Source: Bryobacteraceae bacterium (GTDB taxonomy: Bacteria; Acidobacteriota; Terriglobia; Bryobacterales; Bryobacteraceae). Taken from it: a stretch of DNA of 64,000 nt. The translations under genes and the position numbers were made by a program. Numbering within the stretch: position 1 is the stretch's first letter; each line of letters starts with the position of its first letter. This document shows, in pieces, positions 32,588 to 39,590 of the stretch. Location: the NCBI GenBank assembly GCA_025056865.1, contig JANWVO010000032.1, forward strand, positions 62,001 to 126,000, in the 5' to 3' direction. The notes under the pieces were generated by a model. The model had not been told where the DNA came from. It was given only the letters and a program-made list of their open reading frames with translations, and ran no database searches.

Positions 32588-32789
32588 CCCAATCCCTTCC
32601 GCGTCCATCTTCCCCGCCTTTGTCCAGTCCACGGCCTCCTCGGTTGTCTGCCCTGGCTCCTCCACAATCGCCCGGGGCTCCCGACCAACTGGCAATCATT
32701 TTGTAACGCCATCGTCATCCGGCTGCGCTACCCTGTGTTCGTATCAGGTGGTTCACCTTCCATCCCATCAAGCGAGGAACCGTCGAGTT

Positions 32790-35700
32790 ATGATCCACAC
32801 CCTCCGCTTCGGAGTGATCCTGCTTGCCTGCTCGCTGCTCGTCTGGGGGCAGGCTGACGCGAACAAGGCGCAGCTTTCCGGCACGGTGCTCGATCCGAAA
32901 GGCGCCGTCGTGCCCGGAGCCAGCATCAAGATCCGAAACGTCAAAACCGGATTCCAGCGCGAGCTGAAATCCGGAGAAACCGGCCAGTTCCGCGCCGTGC
33001 AGCTCGACCCCGGCACCTACGAGCTGGTGGCGGAGAGTCCCGGCTTCGCCCCCACCACGCTCACGGGCATCGAGTTGGGCGTCGGAGCCTCCGTCAGCCT
33101 CGACGTGACTCTCCAGCTTCAGGCGACCACGCAGAGCATCGAGGTTTCCGACACGATGATCAACGTCGCCCTGCCCGCCCCGGCCGCCATGATCACCGCG
33201 CAGGCCATCGAAAACCTCCCGATCAACGGCCGCCGCTTCCAGGACTTCGCCGCGCTCACGCCCACCGTGCAGGTGGAGCCGTCCCGCGGCCAGCTCTCCT
33301 TCGCGGGCCAGCGCGGCATCAACGGCAACATCATGGTGGACGGCGCCGACTACAACCAGCCCTTTTTCGGCGGCATCCGCGGCGGCGAGCGCTCCAACTT
33401 CAACTTCACCATCCCGCAGGGCGCCATTCAGGAGTTCCAGACGGTCAGCTCTGGCTACGCTGCTGAATACGGCCGCTCCACCGGCGGCGTGCTGAACGTG
33501 ATCACCCGCAGCGGCACCAATGACGTCCACGGCGGCGGCTTCTATCAGAACCGCCACCGCGAGCTGAGCGCGGAAAACCCGATCTTCAAGCGCCAGCCTT
33601 CGGAGTCGCTGCAACAGATGGGCGGCAACGTTGGAGGCCCCATCATCCGCGACCGCATGTTCTTCTTCGGCGCCGCCGAGCACCAGCGCGCCAACACGCC
33701 CGCGCAGGTGATCTTCACCGCGCTTCAGGGCATCACCCCCACGGCGGCCACGCAGGAAGCCTACAGCTTCTTCAAGAGCCTCGAGCAGGACTTCACGCGC
33801 GAAAACCGCGCCACCGCCGTCACCGGCAAGATGGACTACGCCTTTGCGGGCGGCCACCGGCTGACGCTGCGCTACAACCACTCGCGCTCGGAGGAACCCA
33901 ACTCGGTCACGGTCGGCGGCGCGCTGAATCCCTTCACCAACCTCGCGCTGTCGAATGAAGGCACCGAGATCGACCGCACCCACTTCGGCACGGTCCAGTA
34001 CACGCACCTGTTCTCGCCGCGCGTGGTGAACGACCTGAAATTCAGCCAGTCTTACGAGATCCGCCCGCGTCTTTCCAACTCGGCGCTGCCCACGGTGGCG
34101 GCGGGCGTCATCGGCACGTTCGGCGCGCGCAGCTTCCTGCCCACAACCCAGGACGACTACCGCACGCAGATCACGGACTCGCTCACCGTGCTCGCCGGCC
34201 GCCACAGCCTGAAGTTCGGGATGGACCTGAGCCTGCTCAGCACCGCCCAGTTGTTCGGCTTCAACCAGTTCGGCGCGTTCTCTTTCCAGAACACGGCGGA
34301 CATCGTCGGCATCCTCGACATCCTCGGCACCGGCGGCAGCGTGCCCAACCGCTTTGACCACCCCGGCGTCATCTACCGCCGCCAGATCGGCAACCTGCTG
34401 GCTGACTTCGATGCGAAGCAGATGGCGCTGTTCGCGCAGGATTCCTGGCGCGTCACCAACAACCTCACGCTCGACCTCGGCGTGCGCTGGGAGGGCCAGT
34501 GGAATCCGAAGGTGGAGGCGAACAACACGACGCTGGTCAACCGCGTCAACGTCGACTATCCGCTCGGCCGCCTCGACGTCACCCGGATCAAGGACAACCT
34601 GAAACAGTTCATGCCCCGTGGCGGATTCGCGTGGACGCCCTTCTCCGGCAAGCGTACCGTCGTCCGCGGCCACGGCGGCATCTTCTACGCGGCCACGCCG
34701 CTGCTGCTGTTCTCCGGCCCGACCAACAATTTCCGCACGCCCCCGGGCGACGTCAGCATCCAGATTGGTCCGTTCGCCTCGGGCAGCACCACGACGGTTT
34801 ATCAGTTGTTCCGCCAGGTGGGCATTGATCTGAACGCGTCCCAGCTTGGCGCGCTGCCGGTGATTCCGGTGGACCGGGTGCAGCAGGCGGCGGCGCTTGC
34901 CGCCGGCGGCACGGCGCCCGATCCGCTGCTCGGCGCGGCGCTGACGATGATGGCGCCGGAGTTCTACAACCCGCGCTCCTACCAGTGGGGCATCGGCTTC
35001 GAACATCAGCTCACCGGCAACTGGATCGCCGGCGCGCAGTACCAGCACGTCAAGGCCGTCCACCTGCAACGCAACCGCGACTGGAACCTTCCGGTCCCCA
35101 CGGTGCGGGCCACCGACGGCCGTCCCGTCTTCAACCGCGCGCTGCGCCCGGTGCCGCAGCAGGGACAGTACACGACGCGCGAAAGCAATGCCAAGTCGCT
35201 TTACCGCGCGCTCGTGCTTCAGACGCAGTACCGCAGCCGCAAGTTCACCAGCGGCGTCTTCTACACGCTCTCGACGAACTACTCCGACGACGACAACGAG
35301 CGCAACGCCACGGGCATGAACGCCATGAACCCCTACGACCTGCGCAGCGAGTATCACTACTCGGACATCGATGCGCGCCACCTGCTGTCCAGCTATGCGG
35401 TCTACACGCTGCCGTGGGGCATCGAGGTCTCGGGCATCCTGAGGGCGCGCAGCGGGCTGCCGCTCAATCCGGTCGTCGGCAGCGACACCGACGGCAACGC
35501 GACCAACACCGACCGCCCGTACAAGGCGGTGGGCGTGCCCTTCCTCCGCAATGAATTCCGCAACCGCGGCGTGGTGACCAACAACGACCTCCGCATCCTG
35601 AAGAGCTTCAGCTTCCGCGAGCGCTACCGCGTGCAGCTCTCGGCGGAGTTCTTCAACCTGTTCAACCTCGACAACGTCGTCTTCGCTGGCCAGGCCAACA

Positions 35701-35858
35701 TCTACGGTCCGGGCATCAACCCGACCACCGGCGCCGCCGCTCCCGTCGACTCGCGCTTCATGCTGCTGCGCAACGCGGCAGGCGACTACAACCAGCCGAC
35801 GACGTCTCAGGTCGGCAATCCGTTCCAGGCCCAGTTCGGCATCCGGTTCTTCTTCTGA
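32790..35858 (+). CDS. Oar-like TonB-dependent receptor with carboxypeptidase-regulatory domain
   Basis: The 1022-residue outer-membrane protein has a signal peptide (about 1-21). An N-terminal carboxypeptidase regulatory-like beta-sandwich follows (about 26-115, Gly-Thr-Val-Leu-Asp-Pro-Lys-Gly-Ala-Val-Val-Pro-Gly-Ala). Next come a plug domain (Ile-Asn-Gly-Arg-Arg-Phe-Gln-Asp, then Gly-Gly-Val-Leu-Asn-Val-Ile-Thr-Arg-Ser-Gly-Thr-Asn) and a long beta-barrel ending in aromatic Gly-Ile-Arg-Phe-Phe-Phe. This family is much expanded in acidobacteria. Ligands are generally unknown, but uptake of plant-derived oligosaccharides is often suspected. The ATG at 32790 was chosen because the signal peptide starts there. 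GAGGAA lies 11 bases upstream. Confidence 0.92.
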   Translation: MIHTLRFGVILLACSLLVWGQADANKAQLSGTVLDPKGAVVPGASIKIRNVKTGFQRELKSGETGQFRAVQLDPGTYELVAESPGFAPTTLTGIELGVGASVSLDVTLQLQATTQSIEVSDTMINVALPAPAAMITAQAIENLPINGRRFQDFAALTPTVQVEPSRGQLSFAGQRGINGNIMVDGADYNQPFFGGIRGGERSNFNFTIPQGAIQEFQTVSSGYAAEYGRSTGGVLNVITRSGTNDVHGGGFYQNRHRELSAENPIFKRQPSESLQQMGGNVGGPIIRDRMFFFGAAEHQRANTPAQVIFTALQGITPTAATQEAYSFFKSLEQDFTRENRATAVTGKMDYAFAGGHRLTLRYNHSRSEEPNSVTVGGALNPFTNLALSNEGTEIDRTHFGTVQYTHLFSPRVVNDLKFSQSYEIRPRLSNSALPTVAAGVIGTFGARSFLPTTQDDYRTQITDSLTVLAGRHSLKFGMDLSLLSTAQLFGFNQFGAFSFQNTADIVGILDILGTGGSVPNRFDHPGVIYRRQIGNLLADFDAKQMALFAQDSWRVTNNLTLDLGVRWEGQWNPKVEANNTTLVNRVNVDYPLGRLDVTRIKDNLKQFMPRGGFAWTPFSGKRTVVRGHGGIFYAATPLLLFSGPTNNFRTPPGDVSIQIGPFASGSTTTVYQLFRQVGIDLNASQLGALPVIPVDRVQQAAALAAGGTAPDPLLGAALTMMAPEFYNPRSYQWGIGFEHQLTGNWIAGAQYQHVKAVHLQRNRDWNLPVPTVRATDGRPVFNRALRPVPQQGQYTTRESNAKSLYRALVLQTQYRSRKFTSGVFYTLSTNYSDDDNERNATGMNAMNPYDLRSEYHYSDIDARHLLSSYAVYTLPWGIEVSGILRARSGLPLNPVVGSDTDGNATNTDRPYKAVGVPFLRNEFRNRGVVTNNDLRILKSFSFRERYRVQLSAEFFNLFNLDNVVFAGQANIYGPGINPTTGAAAPVDSRFMLLRNAAGDYNQPTTSQVGNPFQAQFGIRFFF

Positions 35859-35876
35859 GCGCCGCACCGGGCCGCT

Positions 35877-35918
35877 GCGGCGCGGACGCCCGACGGCGTC
35901 CGCGCCGCTTTCCTTTTT
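35877..35918 (+). terminator. Rho-independent terminator after the TonB receptor
   Basis: A 14-bp perfect GC-rich stem (GCGGCGCGGACGCC with its complement) around a four-base loop CGAC is followed by TTTCCTTTTT. This is a classic intrinsic terminator 18 bp after the stop codon. Confidence 0.9.
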
Positions 35919-36037
35919 GCACGCCGCAACAGACCGGCGCCGTTCCCGGCGCTGCGGGTCCGGGATCTGCATGGAGGCGAACACGGAGAGCAGGGCCGGA
36001 GCGGCTTGGACCTCTGGTGGCGAACGCCTGCCTGCGC

Positions 36038-36043
36038 TATCAT
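36038..36043 (+). promoter_or_regulatory. -10-like box TATCAT, possibly leaderless promoter
   Basis: TATCAT ends seven bases before the GTG at 36051, the same geometry as the boxes before 4029, 4575 and 29229. It follows the terminator at 35877-35918, so the ArsC-like gene seems to have its own promoter. No clear -35. Confidence 0.38.
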
Positions 36044-36050
36044 CGAATCC

Positions 36051-36389
36051 GTGCCGAAGCTGAAGTTCTACACCAAGCCCACCTGAACGACCTGCCGGAA
36101 GGCCAGGAGTTTCCTGGCGGAACGCAGGGCGGAATTCGAGGCCGTCGACCTTTCGCGCGGCCTGAGCGTCGAAGAGCTGGACCACCTGATCGGCAGGCGC
36201 GACTATCGCGAGTTCCTGAACCCGAAAAACGAGCTGTACCGGCAGTTGGACATGAAGAACAACCCGCCGCCGCGCGAGGAAGCGTTGCGGCTGATGAGCG
36301 AAAATCCCAATCTCATCCGCCGCCCCATCCTGGTGAAAGGCGCGAAGGTGCTTGTGGGATTCGACCCGGATGCGTGGTCTGGCGCCTGA
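36051..36389 (+). CDS. ArsC/Spx-family protein with in-frame TGA at the catalytic Cys: candidate selenoprotein
   Basis: Reading from the GTG at 36051 gives Val-Pro-Lys-Leu-Lys-Phe-Tyr-Thr-Lys-Pro-Thr, then TGA (36084-36086), then Thr-Thr-Cys-Arg-Lys-Ala-Arg-Ser-Phe-Leu-Ala in the same frame. The frame stays open to the TGA at 36387. Total length is 112 codons, normal for ArsC/YffB/Spx thioredoxin-fold proteins. The C-terminal signature Arg-Arg-Pro-Ile-Leu-Val-Lys-Gly-Ala-Lys-Val-Leu-Val-Gly-Phe-Asp is intact. In Spx-type members the TGA position is the first Cys of Cys-x-x-Cys, so the motif would be Sec-Thr-Thr-Cys. A SECIS-like hairpin follows. The alternative is a pseudogene made by a single TGC/TGT to TGA change, but the rest shows no decay. 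Such proteins are thiol reductases or redox regulators. Confidence 0.75.
36091..36128 (+). promoter_or_regulatory. SECIS-like stem-loop downstream of the in-frame TGA
   Basis: The inner stem GCCAGGA (36102-36108) pairs perfectly with TCCTGGC (36112-36118) around a GTT loop. The outer stem CCTGC (36091-36095) pairs with GCAGG (36124-36128), with a small internal loop between. The loop begins 22 bases after the TGA and starts with G. This fits the described bacterial SECIS pattern: short stem, G at the apical loop, loop about 16-37 bases from UGA. GC-rich DNA forms hairpins easily, so this is support rather than proof. Confidence 0.6.
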
Positions 36390-36587
36390 CCGGCTGCTGC
36401 GTTTCCAGGGGGCCGCTATCCACGCCTGCGGCTCCGGGCGTCCGTTTCCGGGCGGCAGCGCGCGGGGCGGCCTTCCCCTTCCTGCCCTTCCTCTCTGGCG
36501 GTCCGGCTGCCGCGATTGCAGCGCCAGACATCGCCTTCGGGACTGATGGGTCCCCGAAAGGCGTGCCGCCGTGATATTCCTGAGGCT

Positions 36588-37736
36588 GTGATCAGCCGTA
36601 GAGATCTTGCCGTCCTCAGCGCCGGAGTCACCGCCATGAAGCGCGCCCGCGCCCAACAGAAGCCCGCCTATGGCGGCGCCCTTGCGAAATTCGAGGGCCG
36701 CTACGACCCGGAACTGTTCGACTCGCTCGCGTGGACGCGCCGGCGGTATGAGGAGATGCCCCGTCAGCTCGCCTTCCGCGCCCGCAACCGCCGCGAGGCG
36801 CTCGCCTGGCAACGCAGGCTGCGGGCGAAGCTCGTCGAACTCCTCGGCGGCTTCCCGGCGCGCACGCCCCTGCGTCCGCAGGTGCTCGAAGTGAAGGAAT
36901 TCCCCGCCTTCACGCGCGAAAGCGTGATCTTCGAGTCCCGCCCGGGGCTTGGCGTTTTCGGCTATTTCTTCGTGCCGAAGAACAGGCCACACCCGCGGCC
37001 CGCACTCATCTGCGTGCCCGGCCACGGCCGCGGCGCCGATGATATCGCCGGCATCGACGAGAAGGGGCAGGACCGGACGGAGAAGGGACCCTACCAGTAC
37101 GACTTCGCCGTGCAGGCGGCCGAACGCGGCTTTGCTGCCTTCGCCATCGAGCCGCTCGGCTTCGGCTGCCGCCGCGATCCCGCCAGCCGCCGCCGGGGAC
37201 TCGGGCAGTCTTCCTGCCAGCCGGCTGCCGGCGCCGCATTGCTGTTCGGCGAGACGATGACCGGATGGCGCGTCTGGGACGTCATCCGCACCGTCGACTA
37301 TCTGGAGACCCGGTCCGAAGTGGACTCGCGCCGCATCGGACTGATGGGCATCAGCGGGGGCGGCACCATCACCACCTTCGGCGCGGCGCTCGAGCCGCGC
37401 ATCGCCGCGGCCCTGGTCAGCGGCTACCTGAACACGTTCCGCGACTCCATCCTGAGCATCTCCCACTGCATGGACAACTACGTGCCCGGCATCCTCCACT
37501 GGTGCGAGATGCACGACGTGGCCGGCCTGATTGCTCCGCGCCCCCTGTTCTGCGAATCGGGCGAGAAGGACGACATTTTCCCCGTCGAGGCCTTCCGCCG
37601 CTCTTTCAGCGAAGTGCAGAAAATTTACCGCATTTTCGGGGCGGAGGAGAATCTCGGCAGCGAAATTTTTCCAAAGGGGCACGAGTTTTCCGGCCGGCTG
37701 GGATTCCCTTTTCTCGAAAAACACCTGGGGGCTTAG
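36588..37736 (+). CDS. Exported alpha/beta hydrolase, dienelactone-hydrolase/acetyl-xylan-esterase-like
   Basis: The 382-residue product (GTG start) begins with a Tat-like motif Ser-Arg-Arg-Asp-Leu-Ala-Val-Leu-Ser-Ala-Gly. The hydrolase domain has the nucleophile Ser256 in Gly-Ile-Ser-Gly-Gly-Gly, a core strand Ala-Leu-Ile-Cys-Val-Pro-Gly-His-Gly-Arg-Gly, a late acid in Glu-Lys-Asp-Asp-Ile-Phe-Pro, and a likely His in Lys-Gly-His-Glu-Phe-Ser. Large members of this group include acetyl-xylan and other carbohydrate esterases, which would fit the nearby xylanase. The exact substrate is unknown. An ATG at 36546 is the alternative start. Confidence 0.8.
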   Translation: MISRRDLAVLSAGVTAMKRARAQQKPAYGGALAKFEGRYDPELFDSLAWTRRRYEEMPRQLAFRARNRREALAWQRRLRAKLVELLGGFPARTPLRPQVLEVKEFPAFTRESVIFESRPGLGVFGYFFVPKNRPHPRPALICVPGHGRGADDIAGIDEKGQDRTEKGPYQYDFAVQAAERGFAAFAIEPLGFGCRRDPASRRRGLGQSSCQPAAGAALLFGETMTGWRVWDVIRTVDYLETRSEVDSRRIGLMGISGGGTITTFGAALEPRIAAALVSGYLNTFRDSILSISHCMDNYVPGILHWCEMHDVAGLIAPRPLFCESGEKDDIFPVEAFRRSFSEVQKIYRIFGAEENLGSEIFPKGHEFSGRLGFPFLEKHLGA

Positions 37737-37741
37737 CCGCC

Positions 37742-38158
37742 ATGAACGGGTTCGAGATTCTCGAGCACACGGCGGACACGGGATTCCGCGTCCGCGCGCG
37801 GACGCTCGAGGATCTGTTCAGCCGCGCGGCGGAGGCTTTGACGGCCATCGCGTTGGACCCTTCGCAGGCGCAACCGCGCGAGCGGCGCGAGGCGGCGTGC
37901 TCGGGCGAGGCGCTGGAAGAGCGTCTCGTCAACTGGCTCAACGAGATTCTCTGGCTGCTCGACGGCGAGCGCTGGGTGCCGGCGCGCATCGAATCGCTGC
38001 ATCTGGAAGGCGATTCGGTCCGGGCAGCCGTGCTTGGCGAGCCGCGGGACGACCAGCGCCATCCGCCGCGCATCGTCGTCAAGGCGGTCACCTTTCACCA
38101 GCTTGTCATCCGTGAGCAAAATGGCATGTGGGAGGCCGAGGTTTTCCTCGACATCTGA
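37742..38158 (+). CDS. Archease, RtcB activator
   Basis: The 138-residue protein is an archease: start Phe-Glu-Ile-Leu-Glu-His-Thr-Ala-Asp-Thr-Gly-Phe with the metal-binding Asp in His-Thr-Ala-Asp. It has Leu-Val-Asn-Trp-Leu-Asn-Glu-Ile-Leu-Trp-Leu near 60-70, Val-Lys-Ala-Val-Thr-Phe-His near 112-118, and the terminal Val-Phe-Leu-Asp-Ile. Archease helps RtcB load GTP and turn over. Its stop is one base before the rtcB ATG, so the two are co-translated, which agrees with the known partnership. Confidence 0.93.
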   Translation: MNGFEILEHTADTGFRVRARTLEDLFSRAAEALTAIALDPSQAQPRERREAACSGEALEERLVNWLNEILWLLDGERWVPARIESLHLEGDSVRAAVLGEPRDDQRHPPRIVVKAVTFHQLVIREQNGMWEAEVFLDI

Positions 38159-38159
38159 C

Positions 38160-39590
38160 ATGCAGATCGAACGGATCGGCGAAGTCCGGTACAGGATTCC
38201 GAAAGGCGCGCGGCATGGGATGCGCACCGATGTGCTGTTCTATGCCAGCGAGGCGATTCTCGAGCAGGTACAGAAGGACCGGTCGCTCGAGCAGGCGATG
38301 AACGTCGCCTGCCTGCCCGGCATCGTCGGCCCGTCGCTGGCGATGCCGGACATCCACCAGGGCTACGGGTTTCCGATCGGCGGCGTCGCCGCCATGGATT
38401 GGGACAGCGGCGTCGTCAGCCCCGGAGGCGTCGGCTACGACATCAACTGCGGCGTGCGGCTGATCCGGACGAACCTGGAAAAGGACGAGGTCCGGGCGAG
38501 GATGAAGGAGCTGGTCGACCAGGTTTTCCGCGACGTGCCCTGCGGCGTTGGCGGAAAGGGCCACCTCGACATCAGCGAGAAGCAGCTCAACCAGATCCTC
38601 GAGCAGGGCGCCGCGTGGATGGTGGAGCACGGCTACGGCGAGCCTTCCGATATCGAGCACTGCGAGGAGCGCGGCTGCCTGCGCGGCGCCGATGCCGGCG
38701 AGGTCAGCGCCCGGGCCAAGGAGCGCGGCCGACCGCAGATCGGAACGCTCGGCAGCGGCAACCATTTTCTGGAAATCCAGTTCGTCCAGCGCATCCATGA
38801 CGAAGAGGCCGCCCGCTGCTACGGGCTCGAGGAAGGCCAGGTGGTGGTGCTGATCCATAGCGGCTCGCGCGGGCTGGGCCACCAGGTCTGCACGGATTTC
38901 CTCGCGCAGATGGGCGCGGCGATGAAGAAGTACGGCATTACGCTGCCGGACCGCCAACTGGCCTGCGTCCCCATCCAGAGCCCGGAGGGGCAGGCCTATC
39001 TGAAGGCGATGCGCGCGGCGGCCAACTTCGCCTGGGCCAACCGGCAGGCGATGCTGCACTTCGTCCGCGGCTCGTTCCAGAAGGTCTTTGGAAAGCACGT
39101 CCGGCTGGGCCTGATCTACGACGTCTGCCACAACATCGCCAAGCGCGAAAAGTACGATTACAACGGCCGTACCGTGGACGTGCTGGTGCACCGCAAGGGC
39201 GCCACGCGCGCCTTCCCGCCGGGCCACCCGGAGATCCCCGCTGACTACCGCGCCGTCGGCCAGCCGGTGCTGATTCCGGGCAGCATGGGCACCGCCTCCT
39301 GGGTGCTGGCCGGCTGCGAGGGCGCCATGCAGGAGAGCTTTGGCAGCGTCTGCCACGGCGCAGGGCGCGTTCTCAGCCGCCACGCGGCCAAGCATGGCCG
39401 CGATGCCCGCGCCGTGCAGCGCGAGCTGGAAGAGCGCGGCATCCTCGTCCGCAGCGAGACACGCGACGGCATCATCGAAGAGGTCCCGGAGGCTTACAAG
39501 GACGTCGACGAGGTCATCGAAACGGTCCACCGTGCGGGGCTGGCGCGCAAGGTGGCGCGGCTGCGGCCGATGGGCGTCATCAAGGGCTGA
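38160..39590 (+). CDS. rtcB: RNA-splicing ligase RtcB
   Basis: RtcB joins RNA ends bearing 2',3'-cyclic phosphate or 3'-phosphate to 5'-OH ends, using GTP and Mn. The 476-residue product has all landmarks: Met-Pro-Asp-Ile-His-Gln-Gly-Tyr-Gly-Phe-Pro-Ile-Gly, the metal site Tyr-Asp-Ile-Asn-Cys-Gly-Val-Arg, Ser-Gly-Asn-His-Phe-Leu-Glu, His-Ser-Gly-Ser-Arg-Gly-Leu-Gly-His, and Val-Cys-His-Gly-Ala-Gly-Arg with the guanylylated His. The frame extends upstream into archease, but the ATG at 38160 is the family start. Confidence 0.96.
   Translation: MQIERIGEVRYRIPKGARHGMRTDVLFYASEAILEQVQKDRSLEQAMNVACLPGIVGPSLAMPDIHQGYGFPIGGVAAMDWDSGVVSPGGVGYDINCGVRLIRTNLEKDEVRARMKELVDQVFRDVPCGVGGKGHLDISEKQLNQILEQGAAWMVEHGYGEPSDIEHCEERGCLRGADAGEVSARAKERGRPQIGTLGSGNHFLEIQFVQRIHDEEAARCYGLEEGQVVVLIHSGSRGLGHQVCTDFLAQMGAAMKKYGITLPDRQLACVPIQSPEGQAYLKAMRAAANFAWANRQAMLHFVRGSFQKVFGKHVRLGLIYDVCHNIAKREKYDYNGRTVDVLVHRKGATRAFPPGHPEIPADYRAVGQPVLIPGSMGTASWVLAGCEGAMQESFGSVCHGAGRVLSRHAAKHGRDARAVQRELEERGILVRSETRDGIIEEVPEAYKDVDEVIETVHRAGLARKVARLRPMGVIKG

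Follow-up and report, generated by a model that had tools for sequence, protein, structure and literature searches.

An ArsC/Spx-related gene with an in-frame TGA from a Bryobacteraceae bacterium is very probably a selenoprotein gene

The gene at positions 36051-36389 of the window (by which we mean the whole 64,000-nucleotide stretch of DNA analysed here) is in our judgement a genuine bacterial selenoprotein gene, and from its sequence and that of its relatives we put the probability at about 0.95. Genes of this kind are easily overlooked because the UGA is read as a stop codon. The first-pass annotation had called the gene a likely unannotated selenoprotein, and the selenoprotein part of that claim is supported by the codon, by the hairpin which follows it, by the selenocysteine (Sec) machinery of the genome and by the conservation of these. 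The proposed mechanism is that the hairpin would recruit SelB carrying Sec-tRNA(Sec), and that the ribosome would thereby read the UGA as Sec. The product would be a single-domain protein of the ArsC/Spx fold with the motif U-T-T-C where its first helix begins.

The gene and its reading frame

The frame comprises 112 codons, begins with a GTG which is inferred to be the start codon, and contains a single internal TGA in addition to its terminal TGA (Table 1). The N-terminus VPKLKF is also found in the nearest relative (locus L037, genome G099). With Cys in place of the TGA, the translation gives a match to the Pfam family ArsC (PF03960) with an E value of 9.4e-21. The first-pass annotation placed the TGA at the first Cys of a CxxC motif and described the second Cys as intact. 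Both statements agree with what we found: the only internal stop is codon 12, the place of the attacking Cys in ArsC/Spx proteins, its column holds Cys in the relatives that do not have TGA, and codon 15 encodes the second Cys.

Table 1. Positions of the features discussed in the text, numbered from the first nucleotide of the window
Feature	Position	Strand	Basis
Putative selenoprotein gene, ArsC/Spx-related, 112 residues, Sec predicted at position 12	36051..36389	+	stop codon TGA 36387-36389; orthologues with TGA in the same column in fetched loci
In-frame TGA, codon 12, presumably read as selenocysteine, first residue of U-T-T-C	36084..36086	+	TGC/TGT at the aligned site in Cys relatives
TGC, codon 15, presumed resolving cysteine of the UxxC motif	36093..36095	+	invariant in the 10-row alignment A1
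Bacterial SECIS-type hairpin, 7-bp stem, GTT loop at 36109-36111	36102..36118	+	folding; codon-shuffle test; pair types by register
Outer stem, CCTGC 36091-36095 with GCAGG 36124-36128	36091..36128	+	present in the window; not conserved

An open frame of 1669 codons on the minus strand (window 32715-37724) lies antisense to both the long frame 32748-35858 and the selenoprotein gene; it is most likely an antisense artefact of GC-rich DNA. The downstream neighbours (window 36516-39590), named from their sequences, we take to be a hydrolase-like protein, an archease-like frame and an RtcB-like protein. The hydrolase-like and RtcB-like neighbours recur near several of the relatives.

Distribution and the codon at the site

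A contig search with the window protein gave 12 loci, and the nine full-length close ones came from Bryobacterales, Terriglobia, Acidobacteriia or Acidobacteria. The source genome itself has a single match to this query. In a sample of the family 64 of 150 genomes match at E 1e-5; strong orthologues are present in 48 of these, with TGA in 40 and a Cys codon in 8. With the 10-row alignment 93 of 396 genomes of the phylum match at E 1e-10. At E 1e-20 there are matches in 101 of 299 genomes of the class, giving 104 rows, 72 with one internal TGA and 32 without; the position of the TGA within these rows is confirmed in the fetched loci alone.

The codon at the site was read in 57 loci scoring at least 100 bits (L033, L034, L035, L084 and L085 fell below this limit and were dropped). 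It is TGA in 45 of them, which represent 44 distinct sequences since L025 and L050 are identical and were counted once, and TGC or TGT in the other 12. The best 30 loci of the phylum search added 18 further TGA and 9 further Cys sequences after removal of L094, in which the codon could not be located, and of two repeats (L086 and L087). A further 9 TGA and 6 Cys sequences were new among the best 30 loci of the class search. The alignment column thus holds either TGA (71 distinct sequences) or Cys (27) in the relatives, the pattern that the first-pass annotation had proposed to look for. An ordinary Cys codon in close relatives had been named there as a sign of a pseudogene; all five genomes of the genus keep the TGA.

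The hairpin downstream of the TGA

The first-pass annotation described a perfect stem of seven base pairs with a GTT loop 22 nucleotides after the TGA. It is found as claimed, with the sequence GCCAGGA-GTT-TCCTGGC and with the stem starting 15 nucleotides past the TGA. The rules given for bacterial SECIS elements (bSECIS) in the legend of Fig. 2 of PMC13188914 are a G in the first two loop positions, a spacing of 16-37 nt, a loop of 3-9 nt, a stem of 4-16 bp and a minimum free energy of -7.5 or lower. The hairpin of the window, with its 7 bp, GTT loop, spacing of 22 and -10.7 kcal/mol, passes all of them, which answers the suggestion that the RNA after the TGA be folded. The fold of 65 nt is by itself unremarkable (z -1.4 against dinucleotide shuffling); the short hairpin segment reaches z -3.4 and p 0.01 against synonymous-codon shuffles. 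A scan of 36000-36420 against Rfam at E values up to 10 gave no family match, and the Rfam model SECIS_1 (RF00031) had no match in the genome, a model which was silent on every control too.

A second, outer stem had also been described. It is present in the window and it is not conserved: all five pairs occur in 3 of the 44 distinct TGA sequences and at least four pairs in 7 of the 44. Because full pairing is confined to those three sequences we do not regard the outer stem as a conserved part of the element.

The hairpin was compared in 71 TGA and 27 Cys sequences. The TGA sequences are all distinct over 90 nt, and over the shorter 66 nt of the hairpin test L166 does not differ from L171. Expected numbers were obtained from shuffles in which the protein was kept fixed and the codons were shuffled according to the pooled usage of the genes. 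The strict rule consisted of the published bSECIS limits with one unbroken stem; the relaxed rule, which was chosen after the strict rule had passed only half of the sequences, required a stem of at least 5 bp and -4 kcal/mol. Under the strict rule 22 of 44 and 8 of 18 TGA forms pass (1.56 and 0.52 expected), against none of the 12 and none of the 9 Cys forms. The strict energy limit is missed by half of the TGA forms. Under the relaxed rule the numbers are 43 of 44 (6.18 expected) and 18 of 18 (1.81 expected) for the TGA forms, compared to 0 of 12 (0.48 expected) and 2 of 9 (1.14 expected) for the Cys forms. The relaxed rule was then applied unchanged to 15 sequences fetched later, where it passed 9 of 9 TGA forms (1.44 expected) and 0 of 6 Cys forms (0.45 expected). 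Taken together, 70 of 71 TGA forms have, by the relaxed rule, a SECIS-type hairpin with G[G/T] in the loop, where synonymous shuffling predicts about 9; among the Cys forms there are 2 of 27, where it predicts about 2. The single TGA form which fails even the relaxed rule is L072.

The stability of the segment tells the same. Against synonymous shuffles the TGA forms have a mean z of -2.73 with p<=0.05 in 33 of 44, while the Cys forms have a mean z of -0.10 with p<=0.05 in 0 of 12. A longer segment dilutes the signal (mean z -1.16 and p<=0.05 in 14 of 44 TGA forms). The loop carries the codon AGT in 42 of the 44 sequences with TGA and in none of the 12 with Cys. Elsewhere AGT is used for Ser much less, at 12 of 164 positions in the remainder of the TGA genes and at 1 of 64 in the long frame 32748-35858 nearby. 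The two other loop codons are AGG and GGT, which still place G[G/T] in the loop. The conservation of the hairpin among the TGA relatives is far beyond chance.

Most TGA forms have the loop at a fixed position relative to the TGA. The 3' strand of the stem occurs in two registers, giving a loop of 3 or 6 nt, and for this reason the types of base pairs were tallied for each register and no covariation count was pooled over all sequences. The strict covariation of base pairs is modest because the pairs are split between register A (24 of 62 TGA sequences), register B (17 of 62) and the remaining 21 with bulges or other registers. Two sequences (L099 and L114) have the hairpin nearer to the TGA, with a spacing of 17 and a GGTC loop.

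The selenocysteine machinery

The source genome (4.18 Mb in 61 contigs, listed as 100% complete) contains all four genes of the pathway whose presence the first-pass annotation wanted to see confirmed: a tRNA-Sec at 72.6 bits, which ARAGORN reports as tRNA-SeC(tca), as well as selB (352.5 bits), selA (494.2 bits) and selD (353.1 bits). The selD gene (locus L019, minus strand, G000:C47:5348-6253) has one in-frame TGA itself, in the context ...VKAAG-U-ASKLSPK..., followed at a spacing of 20 by GTCCAAA-GGT-TTTGGAC, a stem of 7 bp which fails the strict energy limit and passes the relaxed rule. Judging from this arrangement selD is likely a second selenoprotein gene of the source genome with a similar hairpin layout.

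Five of the 40 genomes of the family sample with the TGA form gave no selB at E<=1e-60, one of them presumably G137, and these same five do have tRNA-Sec. In another TGA genome, G139, selB is present and no tRNA-Sec was found at E<=1e-11. It should be noted that selB is nearly universal in the family sample (129 of 150 genomes), so that its presence in 35 of 40 Sec genomes and 7 of 8 Cys genomes does not discriminate between the two.

Exchange of Sec and Cys

The tree of the proteins mixes Sec and Cys forms. Parsimony gives six changes, of which the well-supported branches force only one; the source genus is all Sec. Relatives with a Cys codon had been foreseen as a possible argument against the selenoprotein. 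Such relatives do exist, and the hairpin is largely missing from them and kept in the TGA forms. Both forms can occur within a genus. In genus g25 the codon is TGA in G139 and G618 and Cys in G089, G646 and G709; in G089, which is listed as 100% complete, neither selB nor tRNA-Sec was found at the limits used. Four genomes of genus g73 are in the family sample, two with TGA (G073 and G148), one with Cys (G112) and one without a match (G134). A Cys relative of this genus, L043, has GCAAAGA gat TGCTTCG where L025 has GCGAAGA gtt TGCTTCG, and its stem region looks like a decayed hairpin.

Family assignment and possible function

Scores against family models were taken with Cys in place of Sec. 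The only NCBIfam model for which the window protein exceeds the cut-off is TIGR01617 (ArsC-related, Spx/MgsR), and it does so narrowly with 77.3 against 75.05. Distant TGA relatives, scanned without their N-termini, lie on both sides of this cut-off (L088 51.9, L095 56.0 and L097 69.2 below, L099 83.4 above). For NF041106 (ArsC_rel_Se_1) the window protein scores 35.7 and the cut-off is 85. L084 and L035 score 102.8 and 117.8, so that the model does recognise such proteins, and the window protein is outside it. These two belong to a second, distinct type of ArsC-like gene with TGA, seen in L084 (genome G113), L085 (G083) and L035 (a proteobacterial contig); L085 groups with L035, and the three rows make up a separate, well-supported branch of the tree.

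In an AlphaFold2 model of the protein (pLDDT 92) U-T-T-C lies where the first helix starts. The best matches of this model in the PDB, as found by Foldseek, are Spx complexes and ArsC-related structures, and the YffB structure 1rw1 is within the first ten. The label "ArsC/Spx-type" of the first-pass annotation is right at the level of the superfamily, and neither arsenate reduction nor binding to RNA polymerase in the manner of Spx is supported.

In 19 of 39 loci from the nearer relatives a gene for a single-domain rhodanese (PF00581) precedes the Sec/Cys gene on the same strand. The 39 loci (L024-L032 and L036-L065, 38 of them distinct, including L036 of the window) are those in which roughly 1 kb of upstream DNA or more is available, and the rhodanese is found in L032, L038-L042, L044, L048, L049, L051-L053, L055, L056, L058-L061 and L065. 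In 15 of the 19 there are at most 46 nt from the rhodanese stop codon to the Sec/Cys codon, and the two genes are possibly in one operon. The copy used as query has the active-site loop CHHGMRS. The end of a rhodanese gene is visible in 5 of 18 further loci with only about 100 nt of flanking DNA. The rhodanese occurs beside both Sec and Cys forms (L058-L060 are Cys) and in three of the five members of the genus (L038-L040). Neither the window gene nor that of its nearest relative, L037, has it as a neighbour, and a search with one query detected it in none of 28 phylum loci (L088-L115). The source genome has a rhodanese on another contig, 56% identical over about 94 residues. The rhodanese as a neighbour suggests a role in persulphides or sulphur transfer.

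From the fold, a predicted one, and from the neighbours the protein would on balance be a Sec-dependent thiol or persulphide reductase, an assignment towards which we lean. In such an enzyme the selenol would attack an oxidised sulphur substrate, i.e. a disulphide, sulphenate or persulphide, or possibly an oxyanion such as arsenate. A selenenylsulphide would then be formed with Cys15 and be reset by the thiol system of the cell.

Two other functions have to be considered, and each appears improbable to us. According to the first the selenoprotein is a redox-sensing regulator of the Spx/MgsR type which binds RNA polymerase and uses the Sec-Cys pair as its switch. The match to TIGR01617 and the best structural match, Spx of B. 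subtilis (3gfk, E 3.1e-10), speak for it; however, the ArsC-related and YffB structures match about equally well, and the models specific for Spx regulators give scores far below their cut-offs (NF002459 57.9/123, NF009885 36.8/152, NF009210 35.4/159). Furthermore, the alignment has a gap of two residues at or beside the Gly of the Spx stretch "DGTDEII", a Gly which we take to be a contact to the alpha subunit of the polymerase. According to the second the protein is a Sec-dependent arsenate reductase, and there is only a small chance of that too. The match to Pfam ArsC fits this function and E. coli ArsC is among the folds matched, with a weaker E value of about 1e-4, but the arsenate reductase model TIGR00014 gives 40.4-40.5 where its cut-off is 106.05. 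Neither was any arsenic-resistance gene recognised by eye among the recurrent neighbour clusters, a clustering which was partly spoiled by the long antisense frames of GC-rich genomes.

Pseudogene or reassigned codon

The idea that a nonsense mutation, or an error of sequencing, has interrupted an ordinary ArsC/Spx gene deserves hardly any credence. A frame split by one in-frame TGA is what a pseudogene would look like, but 71 distinct sequences from many genomes have the TGA in the same column, and the hairpin is far commoner in the TGA forms than in the Cys forms. Furthermore, the frame past the TGA is under purifying selection, against the view that it has been inactivated: compared with the nearest relative dN is 0.091 and dS 1.125 (dN/dS about 0.08), and six further pairs have dN of 0.09-0.17 and dS of 0.31-0.90. 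A reassignment of TGA throughout the genome (e.g. to Trp) or a tolerated read-through would also leave the frame open past the TGA, but it has practically no chance of being right, as the same gene terminates in TGA here and in several relatives, the aligned residue is Cys in the 27 sequences without TGA, and the genome has a tRNA-Sec with the anticodon UCA.

Comparison with known systems

With the selenoprotein reading in place a wider picture can be drawn, which we present tentatively and think rather unlikely to be correct as a whole. It postulates a selenoprotein family of the Spx/YffB branch which is widespread in Acidobacteriota, has a rhodanese as partner in part of its range and acts as a selenium-dependent persulphide reductase or redox regulator. 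Sec and Cys would have been exchanged repeatedly in this family, and the exchanges would be recorded by hairpins which are kept in the Sec form and decayed in the Cys form. The gene of the window is found again in many genomes of the Acidobacteriota sampled. On the selenoproteins of this phylum the literature searched says little. The gene would also assign Sec to the Spx/YffB branch within the ArsC superfamily. With its closely related Sec and Cys forms, the hairpin being found with Sec and largely not with Cys, the lineage lends itself to a direct test of why and how one residue replaces the other.

ArsC-family selenoproteins as such are already known and have been on record since 2005 (PMC1088965). 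The main text of a 2026 review (PMC13188914), which lists the arsenate reductase forms TIGR00014 with UxxS and NF041106 with UxxC, does not contain the words "ArsC", "Spx" or "Acidobacteri". The tables of PMC1794560 count two ArsC-like selenoproteins, one each in Desulfotalea and Desulfuromonas, and give for the Acidobacteria three families with four selenoproteins which those tables do not name. No ArsC/Spx selenoprotein of Acidobacteriota is named in the available parts of PMC13188914, PMC1794560, PMC12013277, PMC9312934 and PMC1088965. The TIGR01617-like branch in Acidobacteriota appears to be unreported in the literature searched, i.e. open papers exclusive of preprints and supplements and in part available as excerpts.

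Four known systems resemble the window protein. The selenoproteins of Desulfotalea and Desulfuromonas are described as ArsC-like and as carrying Sec, and may be kin to it (PMC1794560, tables). The arsenate reductase selenoprotein of marine metagenomes (COG1393/TIGR00014), as described in the available parts of PMC1088965, PMC9312934 and PMC13188914, shares the ArsC superfamily and has Sec as the attacking residue; it differs in having UxxS where the window protein has UxxC, and the window protein falls outside TIGR00014. The proteins of NF041106, called "arsenate reductase-like protein", resemble it in belonging to the ArsC superfamily and in having Sec first in UxxC. A member above the cut-off occurs even in the same bacterial family (L084), whereas the window protein remains below it. 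The best matches in both fold and sequence are Spx of B. subtilis, which has a CxxC redox motif, YffB and the family TIGR01617; the known members of this group carry Cys where the window protein would carry Sec, and the window protein lies outside the models specific for Spx.
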